Below, in pieces: positions 6,003 to 10,379 of a DNA stretch of 38,718 nt. The DNA comes from Vulcanimicrobiota bacterium (lineage in GTDB: Bacteria > Vulcanimicrobiota > Vulcanimicrobiia > Vulcanimicrobiales > Vulcanimicrobiaceae). A program made the translations under genes and the position numbers. Every line of letters begins with the position of its first letter. Position 1 is the stretch's first letter. Location of the stretch: positions 13,931-52,648 of the forward strand of contig DAHXOK010000002.1 in NCBI GenBank assembly GCA_027364935.1. The letters are read 5' to 3'. The notes below the pieces were generated by a model that saw nothing but the letters and a program-made list of their open reading frames with translations, was not told where the DNA came from and did no database searches.

Positions 6003-6752
6003 CTATGCCAGGGCCTCTGCAACGGCGGCGTCGGAGAGGTCGAGGTTGCTGAACATGCGCTGGACGTCTTCGTGGTCGTCGAGCGCCTCCAAAAATGCGA
6101 GCGCCTGCGAAAGCGCCGTGCCGTGCAAGTCGAGTTTCGTGCGCGGGCGCATGCCCAGGAACGCGTCGCTGACGGCGACGCCGCGATCGCGCAGCGCGTC
6201 GCGCGCGGAGGCAAGCGCGGCGGGCCGCGTATAAACCGTCGAGCCGGACGCGTCGAACTCGAGATCCTCAACCCCGTCAACCAGCACGTCTTCGGTCAAC
6301 CCCTCCTCCGAACGCCCCTTCGGGTCGACGTCGAGAATGCCGACCGGATCGAACATCCATCCAACGCTGCCGCTCTCGCCGAGCGATCCGCCGTGCTTCG
6401 AAAACACAAAGCGCAGCTCGGCCGCGGTACGATTGCGATTGTCGGTCGCAGCGTCCACGACGACCGCAAGGCCGTGCGGGCCGTAGCCTTCGTAGCGCAG
6501 TTCTTCGATCTGCGCCGCATCGGCCTGACCGGATGCCCGCGCGATCGCGCGTTTGATGTTCTCCTGCGGCATGTTGCTCTCGCGCGCTTTTTCGACCGCT
6601 ACTTTCAGGCGGTAGTTTGCCTCGGGATCGGGTGAGCCCGAACGCACCGCAACGATGATCTCTTTGCTCAACTTGGTGAACAACGCGCCGCGCTGTGCGT
6701 CCGCTTTTCCCTTGCGCAGCCGGATATTATGGAACTTCGAATGGCCGGACAT
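6003..6752 (-). CDS. yebC: YebC/PmpR family translation or transcription regulator
   Basis: The 249-residue protein starts with the hallmark MSGHSKFHNI and continues with KGKADAQRG, FTKLSKEI, NMPQENIKRAI and YEGYGPHG, the full YebC three-domain layout at normal length. Family members were described as DNA-binding regulators, and some act on ribosomes stalled at proline-rich sequences. The ATG at 6752 is fixed by the conserved N-terminus. A palindromic element ends one base before it, so the 5' leader of yebC, including a possible GGAG Shine-Dalgarno, lies inside that element. The next gene (PASTA) begins three bases after the stop, suggesting one transcript. Confidence 0.96.
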   Translation of the reverse strand: MSGHSKFHNIRLRKGKADAQRGALFTKLSKEIIVAVRSGSPDPEANYRLKVAVEKARESNMPQENIKRAIARASGQADAAQIEELRYEGYGPHGLAVVVDAATDNRNRTAAELRFVFSKHGGSLGESGSVGWMFDPVGILDVDPKGRSEEGLTEDVLVDGVEDLEFDASGSTVYTRPAALASARDALRDRGVAVSDAFLGMRPRTKLDLHGTALSQALAFLEALDDHEDVQRMFSNLDLSDAAVAEALA

Positions 6753-6753
6753 C

Positions 6754-7035
6754 TAGGGAAGCTCCGGAGAAGTTGCTGCACCGAGCGCAACGAGCATTTT
6801 CGCCGCGGATCGAGGAGCGAGGAGGAAGCATAGCCCGGGCGCTCTGTGACCGACGCAGCGACAATGAACTGCGGCGAAAACGCCGTTGCCCTTTGGGTTT
6901 GCGCCCCGAGGGCTCGTCTGCGTCGTCGCCCGCTCGGTCACAGATCGCTGAGGGTATGCTTCCTCGCGGTCTTCTCGCATCCGAATCCTCGGGGCGTCAA
7001 ACGATCGATACATGAACTTCTTCAGAGCTTCCCTA
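6754..7035. mobile_element. Palindromic MITE-like element with TA-flanked terminal inverted repeats
   Basis: The gap between the glycosyltransferase and yebC holds one long imperfect inverted repeat. Collinear matching arms are 6754-6774 with 7015-7035 (18 of 21 bases), 6822-6832 with 6955-6965 (11 of 11), 6843-6853 with 6934-6944 (11 of 11) and 6852-6858 with 6918-6924 (7 of 7). The spacing is preserved to within a few bases around a centre near 6894, where a CGGCG-AAAA-CGCCG hairpin lies (6872-6885). The termini read TA-GGGAAGCTC and GAGCTTCCC-TA, as for a non-autonomous IS630/Tc1-like element with TA target duplication. No transposase is present. It could instead be a large RNA hairpin in the yebC leader. 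An 86-codon minus-strand frame runs through it but does not look coding. Confidence 0.5.
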
Positions 7036-7041
7036 ACTTGG

Positions 7042-7060
7042 CTTCGCCTCAACGGCGAGG
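7042..7060 (-). terminator. Hairpin just after the glycosyltransferase stop, weak terminator candidate
   Basis: On the minus strand CCTCGCC and GGCGAAG pair in six of seven positions around a GTTGA loop, starting one base after the stop codon at 7062. No U-tract follows, so intrinsic termination is doubtful; it may only be a messenger 3' end structure. Confidence 0.25.
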
Positions 7061-7061
7061 T

Positions 7062-10000
7062 TTACCCTGGGCCGATGATCCAGGTGGGAAACCACATGCG
7101 CGCGTGCCACGCATCGTAGGAGAGCGGCCACGCGGAGAGCACCGGTAAGAAGAAAACGAACGCCGCCGCGATAGCGCCGAGAATGCCGAAGACGGCGACG
7201 CGCCCCACGAGCAGCGCCGAGCTTCGCTCCTCCTCCGTGCGCCCGTCGCGAACGTTGGCCCATTGCCAGATCCGCTGCAGCACGATTGCGTTGCAAAGGC
7301 AAATGAGCGGAATGTCTACGTAAAAATGATATTCCCACGCGAGGCGCGGCGATTTCGCCCACGGCAGCCATTGCAACAGATACGTGACGACGAGCAGCGC
7401 GTATCCCTTGTTGCGCTCGCGCCATGCGAAGATTCCCACCAGCGGTACGCAGATCAAGCCGAACCAGAGATTGAGCGGGTTTGGCATTGAGGTGATCTCG
7501 GTGATGCAGCACTGCTTGTTGGGATCGCGTTGCGTGCGGTCGAGGCTCCGATGATCCTCGTAATAGTACGCTACAGGTACGTAATCGAATGGCCATTCGA
7601 ACCATTTGGAAGAGTACGGATGCGTCGCTTTCAGGTGATCGTGATAATCGAACATGGCATACTGGCGCAGAACGACGTCGTTGATAGTGTGGATCTCGTT
7701 CGGATCGGGTGCCTGCCGGATGAGGTCGGGGAGCCAAACCATGCCGTAGACCGTCATCGCCACGAACGCAATCGTGACGAGCGCGCCGTCGATGCGAAAA
7801 CCGTGCGGGTTACCCCAAAGCGCTGGACGCTTCGGACGCAGATACGGCTGCAGCCAGATGAGGATGAGCAGCAGGAAGCTGACACCGAAGCCCATGACGC
7901 CGTACCACTTCGAGCTGACGAGCGCGCCGAGTGCGAGCGTGAAGAGGAGCAGCCAGAGCTTCGCCGTGCGGCCGTCCTCCACGCTGTCGCCGGCGGTAAT
8001 CCGAGCATCGGCGTACGTTGCCGACCCCGCCGCCGTCTTGTACGCGACGGTGTCGCGCCGATAGACGATCTCGACGTCGTCATCGCCATACACGAGCGCA
8101 CCGCCCTTGCTCTGCGTGAGCTGCCCTCGACGCACCGCGCTCCTGCCCACGATTCCGCCGTCGACGGTGTGCATTTCGCTCTCGCCCGCGCGTTGCAACG
8201 CAACCGATCCCTCCGGAAACGTCAATTCGCGCGCACCTGAGGCGAACGTCGCCGGGATAACGACGTTCCGGAAGAGCAGATAGAAGCCGCACGCGAAGTA
8301 CGCCGCGCATACGAATATCGCTCCCGGCCCCGACGTCTGCCCGGAGGTCATCCACGCTACGAACCACGGCCAGCGGAAGATCCAATGCTGGGCGCCGTCG
8401 AGAGCGAACATCGCGGCAAAGCCCAGGCCGACCGACGCGACGGCGGCCGCCGCCAGAATCGGCCAGCTCGCGCCGACGTGCCGCCGCTCTTCCGCCTGCG
8501 ACGCGATCCAGAATCGATAGAACGCGTACACGGCCGCGAGCGCAAAGAAAACGACGAATCCTTCCGGCGTCGCAATGCGCGATTGCACGTAGTGCATGCC
8601 GTCGAGCATGAGGAGCCCCGCCGCGACCGCGGCCCAGAGCGTCGAGCGCGTAATGCGCTTGGCGAAGGCGTAGAGCAGCCTCACGACGAGCGCGCCGAAG
8701 ACGACGTCGAGGAAGCGCCATCCCCACGAGTGGTCCCCGCGCGCCAAGCCGCCGAACATCCACGTCGAAACGGTGATGAGCAGCTTCGTCAGGGGCGGAT
8801 GAGTGTTCTCGTAAATCCGCAGATTTTTCAGGTACTCCTCGGCGGCGCGCGCGAAGTAGACTTCGTCGAAGATTTTCTCCGTCGGCTTCCAGTACCAGGT
8901 CGGGATGGCGAGCGAGAGCACGAACGTCGCCGCGCCCAGGACGCCCATCACGACGTAGTCCAGCGGCTTGCGCAGCGTCGCCAAACCTTCGTACGGGTCG
9001 AACCAGTTTCGAACGCGCCCGAGGAAATCGGCACGCGGCCCCGCCGGCGTCATCCCGCGCTCCTGCGCCGTGCTTCCGAGAAACACGTATCCGAGATAGA
9101 AGAACAGCACGACGGTCGCGAGCGACAAGAACGTCGCAACGGGTCCCCAGAGGTTGTAGGCGCTGACGTTCGATGGCGCATGCGAGCTCAGCAGCGCGAT
9201 GTATTGATACGAGTAGATGAGATTCGCCCAGAAGACAATCGACAATCCGATGCCGCACCAGAGATAGCGCCGCGCGAACGGAAGACACGCGATCGTGAAG
9301 ACGACGCCGTCGAAGACGTAGCGCTCGTGCATGCGCGTCGCGAGCGTAAAGAAACCGAGGAGCGAGATCGCCGCGGCTTCGAGCAACGCCTGCGACGTCT
9401 TCAGTTGAACGTAGCGCCACACGAGGAGCCCGACCGCAGCGACGACGAGAATGATGCCCCACGCCGCCTGAGGGAGAAACAGGATGCGCGCGTTGTCCGG
9501 CTGCCAGAAGACGCCGCCGGCGTTCCAGATGCGCAGAGCCCAAATATTGAACGCGTTGACCGAGTTGAACGGATAGACGTTCGTTCCGAAGCTCAGCCGC
9601 TCGAGCAGCCACGCGATTGCGGCAATCGGATTCGACGGATGGAACGGCTCGACGAGCACCACCGTGAGGAAGACGGCCGCGACGATTCCGTACGCGGTCG
9701 CGCGAAGGCGCAGATCGCGCCGCTCTCGGCTCGTGAAGGCAAACGCGATGAAGAGCGGGAGCAGCACCGCCGCCTGCGGTTTGACGAGCAGCGAATACGC
9801 CAGCGAGAGCCATCCGCAGACGATCCAGAGCGTCGCAGGTCGCGGCATCTCGAAATCGTCGCTGCGCAAGAGCGCGTAGGTGCCGAGCAGCGCGAAGAAG
9901 CACGCGATCGAATCGACCTGTCCCCAGAGGGCCGAGACGAAGACGATCGCAGGATTGAACAGATAGAACGCCGCCGCTGCGAGCGCCACCGTCCGCGAGG

Positions 10001-10379
10001 CGAATCGCCGCACGAGAGCATACAGCAGCGTGCCGAGCGCCAGATCGAACGCGATCGCCGGAAGCTTGACGAGCACGGAGAGCACGCCGTACCCGGCGTC
10101 GTGCGCGCTGAAAAACTGCGCCCAGAACGCTCCGACCATTCCGAGAATGTAGAAATATCCCGGCGGATAGTCCAGGAAGCTCGTCGACCCGTAGAACCTC
10201 CCCGGCCCATGCGCCACGAGCGTCATCGCCCACGCTTCGAAGCTCGCAATGTCGTTGGGAAAGCCTTGCGCGCGAACGTAGACGAGGCGAAGCACGAGGC
10301 CGAGCAACAGCATCGCCGGCAGCGCCCATGGAAGCGCGCGTTCGGAGATGGGCGTTTCGGAGCGCGGCGCGATCTTCAC
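7062..10379 (-). CDS. Fusion of two GT-C membrane glycosyltransferases (GT87-like plus PMT/GT39-like)
   Basis: One 1105-residue multi-membrane-span protein contains two complete GT-C-type halves. The N-terminal half (about residues 1-460) has an acidic first-loop motif (FPNDIASFEAW), YPPGYFYIL, ALWGQVDS, VKPQA and RMHERYVFD, as in polyprenol-sugar-dependent mannosyltransferase-like proteins. The second half (about 475-1105) is a protein-O-mannosyltransferase type: FDEVYFARAAEEYL from about 504, then THPPLTKLL, GWRFLDVVFG and DGMHYVQSRIA. A soluble, beta-rich insert of about 85 residues (roughly 713-798) interrupts the second half between membrane segments. Both halves keep acidic residues in the first external loop, so both may be active, on lipid-linked sugar donors facing outward. 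The start is a GTG forming a GTGA overlap with plsC. Substrates are unknown. No stop or frameshift separates the halves. Confidence 0.87.
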   Translation of the reverse strand: MKIAPRSETPISERALPWALPAMLLLGLVLRLVYVRAQGFPNDIASFEAWAMTLVAHGPGRFYGSTSFLDYPPGYFYILGMVGAFWAQFFSAHDAGYGVLSVLVKLPAIAFDLALGTLLYALVRRFASRTVALAAAAFYLFNPAIVFVSALWGQVDSIACFFALLGTYALLRSDDFEMPRPATLWIVCGWLSLAYSLLVKPQAAVLLPLFIAFAFTSRERRDLRLRATAYGIVAAVFLTVVLVEPFHPSNPIAAIAWLLERLSFGTNVYPFNSVNAFNIWALRIWNAGGVFWQPDNARILFLPQAAWGIILVVAAVGLLVWRYVQLKTSQALLEAAAISLLGFFTLATRMHERYVFDGVVFTIACLPFARRYLWCGIGLSIVFWANLIYSYQYIALLSSHAPSNVSAYNLWGPVATFLSLATVVLFFYLGYVFLGSTAQERGMTPAGPRADFLGRVRNWFDPYEGLATLRKPLDYVVMGVLGAATFVLSLAIPTWYWKPTEKIFDEVYFARAAEEYLKNLRIYENTHPPLTKLLITVSTWMFGGLARGDHSWGWRFLDVVFGALVVRLLYAFAKRITRSTLWAAVAAGLLMLDGMHYVQSRIATPEGFVVFFALAAVYAFYRFWIASQAEERRHVGASWPILAAAAVASVGLGFAAMFALDGAQHWIFRWPWFVAWMTSGQTSGPGAIFVCAAYFACGFYLLFRNVVIPATFASGARELTFPEGSVALQRAGESEMHTVDGGIVGRSAVRRGQLTQSKGGALVYGDDDVEIVYRRDTVAYKTAAGSATYADARITAGDSVEDGRTAKLWLLLFTLALGALVSSKWYGVMGFGVSFLLLILIWLQPYLRPKRPALWGNPHGFRIDGALVTIAFVAMTVYGMVWLPDLIRQAPDPNEIHTINDVVLRQYAMFDYHDHLKATHPYSSKWFEWPFDYVPVAYYYEDHRSLDRTQRDPNKQCCITEITSMPNPLNLWFGLICVPLVGIFAWRERNKGYALLVVTYLLQWLPWAKSPRLAWEYHFYVDIPLICLCNAIVLQRIWQWANVRDGRTEEERSSALLVGRVAVFGILGAIAAAFVFFLPVLSAWPLSYDAWHARMWFPTWIIGPG

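Follow-up and report, generated by a model that had tools for sequence, protein, structure and literature searches.

An insertion next to yebC with IS5-type ends carries a covarying, strand-biased hairpin module that recurs in many phyla

The window, by which we mean the whole stretch of 38,718 nucleotides analysed here, contains a short element lodged between two genes of the same strand, yebC and, upstream of it, a PMT-type mannosyltransferase gene. The locus is composed as follows.

6003-6752, minus strand: yebC (YebC/TACO1), adjoining the left end of the element
6754-7035, no strand assigned: whole element including the flanking TA dinucleotides, 282 bp, with copies in relatives and empty sites
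6754-6755, no strand assigned: left TA, a probable target duplication; in relative G004 the yebC site runs through CTAG with no interruption
6756-6774, no strand assigned: left, yebC-proximal terminal inverted repeat, GGGAAGCTCCGGAGAAGTT
6787-6889, plus strand: hairpin h1 (RNAalifold; columns 34-139 of alignment A1), 14 of 21 scored pairs changed on both sides
6822-6854, plus strand: conserved h1 motif, GAGGAAGC-ATA...T-GTGACCGA-C
6889-6897, plus strand: central mini-hairpin CCCTTTGGG; CCCnnnGGG is invariant in alignment A1
6897-7002, minus strand: hairpin h2, with its motif on the minus strand (RNAalifold; columns 147-253 of A1)
6933-6965, minus strand: conserved h2 motif, GAGGAAGC...GTGACCGA-G
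7015-7033, no strand assigned: right terminal inverted repeat, AACTTCTTCAGAGCTTCCC, which together with its TA matches the 14-nt end of an insertion sequence (IS) on contig 83 of the same genome (G000:C83)
7034-7035, no strand assigned: right TA, probable target duplication
7062-10379, minus strand: PMT-type mannosyltransferase gene

Re-reading of the sequence agreed with a sequence-only reading of this DNA in that a 282-bp element with inverted termini and TA on both sides lies one base from the yebC start codon. The perfect 11-nt ends TAGGGAAGCTC and GAGCTTCCCTA occupy positions 6754-6764 and 7025-7035, and the single base 6753 separates the element from the ATG, which appears as CAT at 6750-6752. 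With its short length, 19-bp terminal inverted repeats and no transposase gene, the element has the make-up of a MITE. The two ends differ at two positions, which turn TTCAGAG into TCCGGAG in yebC sense (6756-6774) and thereby create a GGAG inside the element end, 9 nt before the yebC ATG. This GGAG is possibly a new ribosome-binding site, and it is plausible that the element supplies the start context of yebC.

Comparison with related genomes revealed that the element at yebC is an insertion in this genome. The gene itself was present in all 41 genomes compared, own included, while the motif occurred within 400 nt upstream of it in only 1 of 28 regions, namely the window's own (30 loci were compared, two of which could not be placed). 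The mannosyltransferase-yebC gene pair is retained in relatives with a short gap in between. In the closest relative, G004, whose YebC is 93% identical, the interval from the mannosyltransferase stop to the yebC ATG reads GGGTAA-34 nt-ATG and has CTAG at the place of the element, where the window reads TTAG, element, CTAG in yebC sense; the gap is likewise short in G001, G002, G006 and G007. The empty site that the sequence-only reading had proposed to look for was found, and so were further copies, these lying in relatives; the own genome holds only one full copy. Of the 198 genomes searched, 28 contain similar DNA, counting the window's own, and this is a minimum because three candidates were scored per genome and copy counts are therefore lower bounds; many matches are partial, and several of the 28 genomes hold near-full copies of about 70-90% identity. 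Genome G036 alone has 28 motif sites, and copies were found at genes other than yebC. Among 29 copies inspected, TA stands directly outside both ends in 8, and the GGGAACC lineage mostly has it on one side. Copies of genus g36 (L029, L054, L055, L031, L057 and L059) show TA on one side only, so that the target duplication there is not of the simple kind.

Analysis of the terminal repeats linked the element to a transposase family. The sequence TAGGGAAGCTC occurs ten times in the own genome, compared with four occurrences of the reversed pattern, and two of these sites bound the 1.25-kb IS on contig 83, which has perfect 14-nt ends TAGGGAAGCTCTGA that agree with the window element at 14 of 14 nt on the right and 12 of 14 on the left. 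Its 281-aa transposase scored 313.5 bits against NF033581 (IS5 family, cut-off 140) and carries the Pfam domains DDE_Tnp_1 and DUF772. In the Bacteroidota genome G203, an 899-bp element encodes another IS5-family transposase (NF033580, 172.9 bits, cut-off 110); the left end of this IS (C52) is identical at 25 of 26 nt to the end of the motif-bearing element L273 of the same genome and at 26 of 26 nt to the motif-bearing elements L248 and L180 of genome G200, and at its right end the outer 17 nt agree. In both Eremiobacterota and Bacteroidota, the ends of hairpin elements match a resident IS5-family element. The proposal of a non-autonomous transposon (MITE) is supported by copies in relatives, by empty yebC sites and by an autonomous element whose ends are almost the same, and the search for a transposase with matching ends succeeded; its assignment to the IS630/Tc1 type is not supported, because the end-matched transposases of the two phyla belong to the IS5 family. 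An IS5_4 transposase above cut-off was absent from 8 of 9 genomes searched, including the copy-rich G036, G198 and G200, and for the Elusimicrobia and Verrucomicrobia copies no autonomous element with matching ends turned up among the loci retrieved, which cover part of the sites.

In Porphyromonadaceae (G200 and G203), L256, L257, L262, L263 and L269 are elements or ends with the terminal repeat of hairpin elements and no motif inside, so these ends do not imply the core. Locus L105, considered as a motif-carrying transposase, was rejected, being a decayed IS5 copy beside a separate element. The own genome also has a 1.3-kb IS5 element interrupted by an internal stop (L110 1049-2347, G000:C112), which is matched by a separate 176-bp element (L276 783-959, G000:C96; ends AGGGCAACTCTGA), apparently its ordinary derivative.

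Apparent footprints were also encountered. At three sites in G036 (L293, L294 and L299), only the two ends are left, joined at a 3-base direct repeat as TAGGGAAGCTCTGA-AGAGCTTCC, and L287 in the same genome is a similar near-precise deletion remnant; at the verrucomicrobial loci L363 and L371, the partner end lies 46-47 nt from the first. The two-end footprints have the appearance of deletions caused by slippage at a hairpin in the DNA.

Both strands of the window element fold far better than shuffled sequences (z = -7.6 and -8.8, with 0 of 200 as low). The sequence-only reading had described four collinear inverted-repeat blocks around one centre near 6894, which holds for the 34-nt block (centre 6894.5) and the 41-nt block (6893.5), whereas the other two blocks form local hairpins with centres at 6838.5 and 6949.0. 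Ungapped pairing on the common axis amounts to 18 of 20 in the outermost 20 nt, reaches 16 of 20 at most in the 20-nt blocks lying 60-100 nt in, and stays at or below 9 of 20 in all other blocks. The RNAalifold consensus of 23 copies (alignment A1, i.e. 23 of 25 aligned copies, with L033 and L041 dropped for insertions) comprises an outer stem of terminal repeats, h1, the CCCnnnGGG mini-hairpin and h2. This structure pairs 95.4% of the alignment cells as against 39-42% when slid, and its 220 double-changed cells compare with 64.5 in shuffles (0 of 500). Double-sided changes in h2 affect 14 of 18 pairs plus 2 of 4 pairs. Covariation of the arms, another check proposed earlier, is thus present in the local hairpins h1 and h2. 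The global palindrome has conserved arms with little covariation (double changes in 1 of 11 and in 1 of 9 pairs); these arms correspond to the apices of the two hairpins, each being the reverse complement of the other. The element is therefore not one simple palindrome, its terminal repeats enclosing two covarying hairpins and a mini-hairpin. For the window copy, the single-sequence minimum is an end-to-end rod instead of the branched form, which when enforced lies 16.1 (plus strand) and 10.6 kcal/mol (minus strand) above the free minimum. The energy model is not known to reward such tandem G-A pairs in particular, and one core G.A in the h1 motif of this copy is replaced by A.A.

Tandem G-A pairs make up the helix at the apex of the hairpin (GAGGRAGC/GUGACCGA), where GAGGGAGC and GUGACCGA allow the pairing G.A A.G G-C G-C G.A A.G G-U C-G. 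The Watson-Crick pairs of this core change jointly, as in GACGGAGC/GTGACGGA, GACCGAGC/GTGAGGGA, GAGCGAGC/GCGAGCGA and GAGGGAGT/ATGACCGA. Among 93 core candidates, all four pairs are kept in 83, three in 7 and two in 3; since the candidates were chosen by the G-A frame and its flanks, this shows that the intervening pairs change together, not that the G-A pairs are invariant. The 69 hairpins of alignment A2 and the 87 used for strand bias were picked by the exact core pattern, so that core conservation is there by construction and only the arms provide a free test. In the arms of the 87 non-redundant hairpins, scored for Watson-Crick pairs only, mismatches read on the motif strand comprise 61 G.T versus 27 A.C and 149 G.A versus 8 T.C, the G.A count stemming partly from conserved arm positions that are not independent. 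The G.T excess persisted when the 12 core-adjacent nucleotides were omitted (51 versus 11), and also when, with these nucleotides again omitted, redundancy was limited to 65%, which left 54 hairpins (31 versus 7). Such an excess of G.T and G.A is predicted neither by a double-stranded binding site nor by correction between arms. From these strand-biased mismatches, the motif strand seems to be selected as folded RNA or single-stranded DNA. The orientation of neighbouring genes relative to the motif strand showed no clear bias (20 same, 11 opposite, p = 0.15; 55 of 85 loci usable), which lends no support to a role in mRNA.

The same core recurs far beyond the host family. The apex pattern GAGGRAGCATA-n9-15-TGTGACCGAS matched at least 117 stretches in GTDB genomes, about three being expected from base counting, and the matches listed come, as judged by accession prefix, from 58 genomes whose titles name about 16 phyla, these names being taken from record titles of carriers that are mostly MAGs, in which binning errors are possible. 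A single MAG, RA.bin91, accounts for 24 of the 117 stretches among the matches listed, and two named strains are represented there, Gilvimarinus agarilyticus JEA5 and Simiduia aestuariiviva CECT 8571. Within the host phylum, 16 of 149 genomes (own included) carry the motif, against none for the reversed control. A scan of viral contigs for the pattern found none, and BLAST of a 57-nt motif composite against plasmids, phages and E. coli genomes found nothing.

An automatic search among the matches listed recognised one of two regular architectures in 23 of 80 loci: 12 are one-hairpin elements of about 158-178 bp with a single central motif; 8 two-hairpin elements of about 258-284 bp and three Bacteroidales elements of 331-345 bp have the motif 63-71 nt from one end. 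Of 82 motif hits, 20 had no terminal repeat, several of them at contig ends, and the rest had other or ambiguous spans; some hits stand in tandem. Thirteen larger elements from other lineages were read out, and a CCC-loop-GGG stands mid-element in 8 of them, the other five being the three from Bacteroidales, L183 with a longer loop, and L174, whose far end was not found and whose middle is off. Outside the host family and Bacteroidales, the core of the second hairpin is mostly degenerate. Terminal repeats vary between genomes and lineages while the core persists, and within the host family the tree of the core calls for several switches of repeat type, each affecting both ends at once. In Gilvimarinus (L202 349-379) and Simiduia (L224 5140-5393), the hairpin lies less than about 100 nt upstream of a tRNA-Met gene, Simiduia having two copies 222 bp apart; L225 (2288-2513) is a tandem array with a 103-bp period, 2.2 copies and two motif copies.

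Insertion, matching ends, covariation, recurrence across phyla and strand bias are all observed, and the reading that we consider probable is that of a MITE mobilised by an IS5-family transposase and built around a conserved folding module, which belongs to a multi-phylum family with exchangeable or co-evolving ends. The MITE would have entered the TA of a C/T-TA-A/G target in the gap that separates yebC from the mannosyltransferase gene, mobilised by an IS5-family transposase which recognises the terminal repeats and presumably works by cut-and-paste. This enzyme probably came from the 1.25-kb element on contig 83, whose ends are almost the same and which may have mobilised the window copy. 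The interior would not be a decayed transposase gene but a conserved folding module of two long, opposite-facing hairpins with tandem G-A apices around a mini-hairpin; its family would be spread over many phyla, with terminal repeats exchanged, or co-evolving, to match the resident IS5-like transposase. Counted against this reading are the 8 of 9 genomes without an IS5_4 match, the TA on both sides in only 8 of 29 inspected copies, the motif-free elements with the same ends in G200 and G203, the mostly degenerate second core outside the host family, the lack of support from gene orientation, the rod-shaped minimum of the window copy and the fact that most carriers are MAGs. As to the hairpin, it would act in cis for the element, as RNA by slight preference over single-stranded DNA during replication or transposition. 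A broader proposition, which we hold tentatively and with less conviction than the first, is that a hitherto undescribed class of structured nucleic acid, most probably RNA and composed of stacked tandem G-A helices, would spread through at least a dozen phyla by borrowing the ends of the resident IS5-like transposon, which would make it a selfish folded module independent of any one transposase.

Of the alternatives, the one that survives best, although unlikely, is an ordinary internal-deletion derivative of an IS5 element whose palindrome is kept by arm-to-arm correction (template switching) around a functionless core. According to PMC10969869, MITEs are thought to arise mainly from decaying insertion sequences, the 176-bp element of the own genome indeed has the ends of the C112 IS, and the footprints suggest that such palindromes slip in replication. 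However, the IS on contig 83 is matched in its end region only, with no counterpart of the core seen; the same core occurs in other phyla with different ends; and arm correction predicts neither a G.T excess on one strand nor the imbalance between G.A and T.C.

Less probable still is a single-stranded DNA hairpin read by an HUH (Y1) transposase in the manner of REP/RAYT, with the DDE-type ends as a secondary feature. The strand-specificity of the hairpin and the copies in tandem or without detected terminal repeats fit this idea, and a Y1_Tnp match was found in 9 of 14 motif carriers versus 1 of 7 non-carriers, all of which belong to the host family. Within that family, however, the figures are 1 of 6 carriers (G007, with broken fragments) and 1 of 7 non-carriers; no Y1_Tnp match was obtained in G000, G004, G036, G089 or G093, and the GTAG tag of REP elements (PMC3733652) is absent from the motif. 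The REP/RAYT model is thus weakened in the host family and may hold elsewhere.

A MITE of the IS630/Tc1-mariner type is very improbable, since the TA at both ends that speaks for it is outweighed by IS5-family transposases with matching ends in two phyla. Equally improbable is an ancestral regulatory RNA leader of yebC, one version of the long RNA hairpin considered before: the fold is strong and covarying and the element abuts the start codon, but yebC is ubiquitous in the genomes compared, among the 28 upstream regions examined the motif precedes it in the window only, and copies lie at other genes. What stands of the RNA-hairpin alternative is a structured, covarying and strand-biased core, and a recent role of the window copy at yebC is possible.

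The element, read as an IS5-mobilised MITE with a folding module, resembles IS5-family MITEs in being short, non-coding and multicopy, with a TA-type target and ends in common with a resident IS5-family element, and differs from them in that its interior is a covarying fold that crosses phyla independently of the IS, and in that lineages differ in their ends but keep the core. With REP/BIME elements and their RAYT (Y1) transposases it shares strand-specific hairpins, a conserved tag and head-to-head pairs; it differs in its DDE-type terminal repeats, often with TA flanks, and in that five host-family carriers gave no Y1 match. The parvovirus ITR, an outer palindrome around two inner hairpins, is alike in shape alone; genomes and enzymes differ, and no kinship is claimed. 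QMITE2 of Coxiella and BOX, RUP and SPRITE of pneumococcus are likewise small repeats, some of them palindromic, with stable predicted transcripts, and the consulted portion of PMC10969869 does not describe for them one core under varied ends in many phyla. At gathering score, Rfam gave no match in the window and only RNase P and tRNA in 19 other loci, the weak hits at 6700-7100 lying far below that score; among the papers listed by topic searches none reports this element, and those listed as containing the motif letters are all, by title, on unrelated subjects. MITEs themselves are known; what is new, within the scope of these searches, is a folded core that is conserved in many phyla beneath exchangeable ends. 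If correct, this would mean a recurrent strand-specific fold with no Rfam match and a testable case of end-swapping around a selfish core, for which Gilvimarinus agarilyticus JEA5 and Simiduia aestuariiviva CECT 8571 would be the strains in which to ask what the fold binds. The usual view of MITEs is that of transposons emptied by deletion; in the present case, it is the interior that appears to be selected and the ends that appear to be exchangeable.
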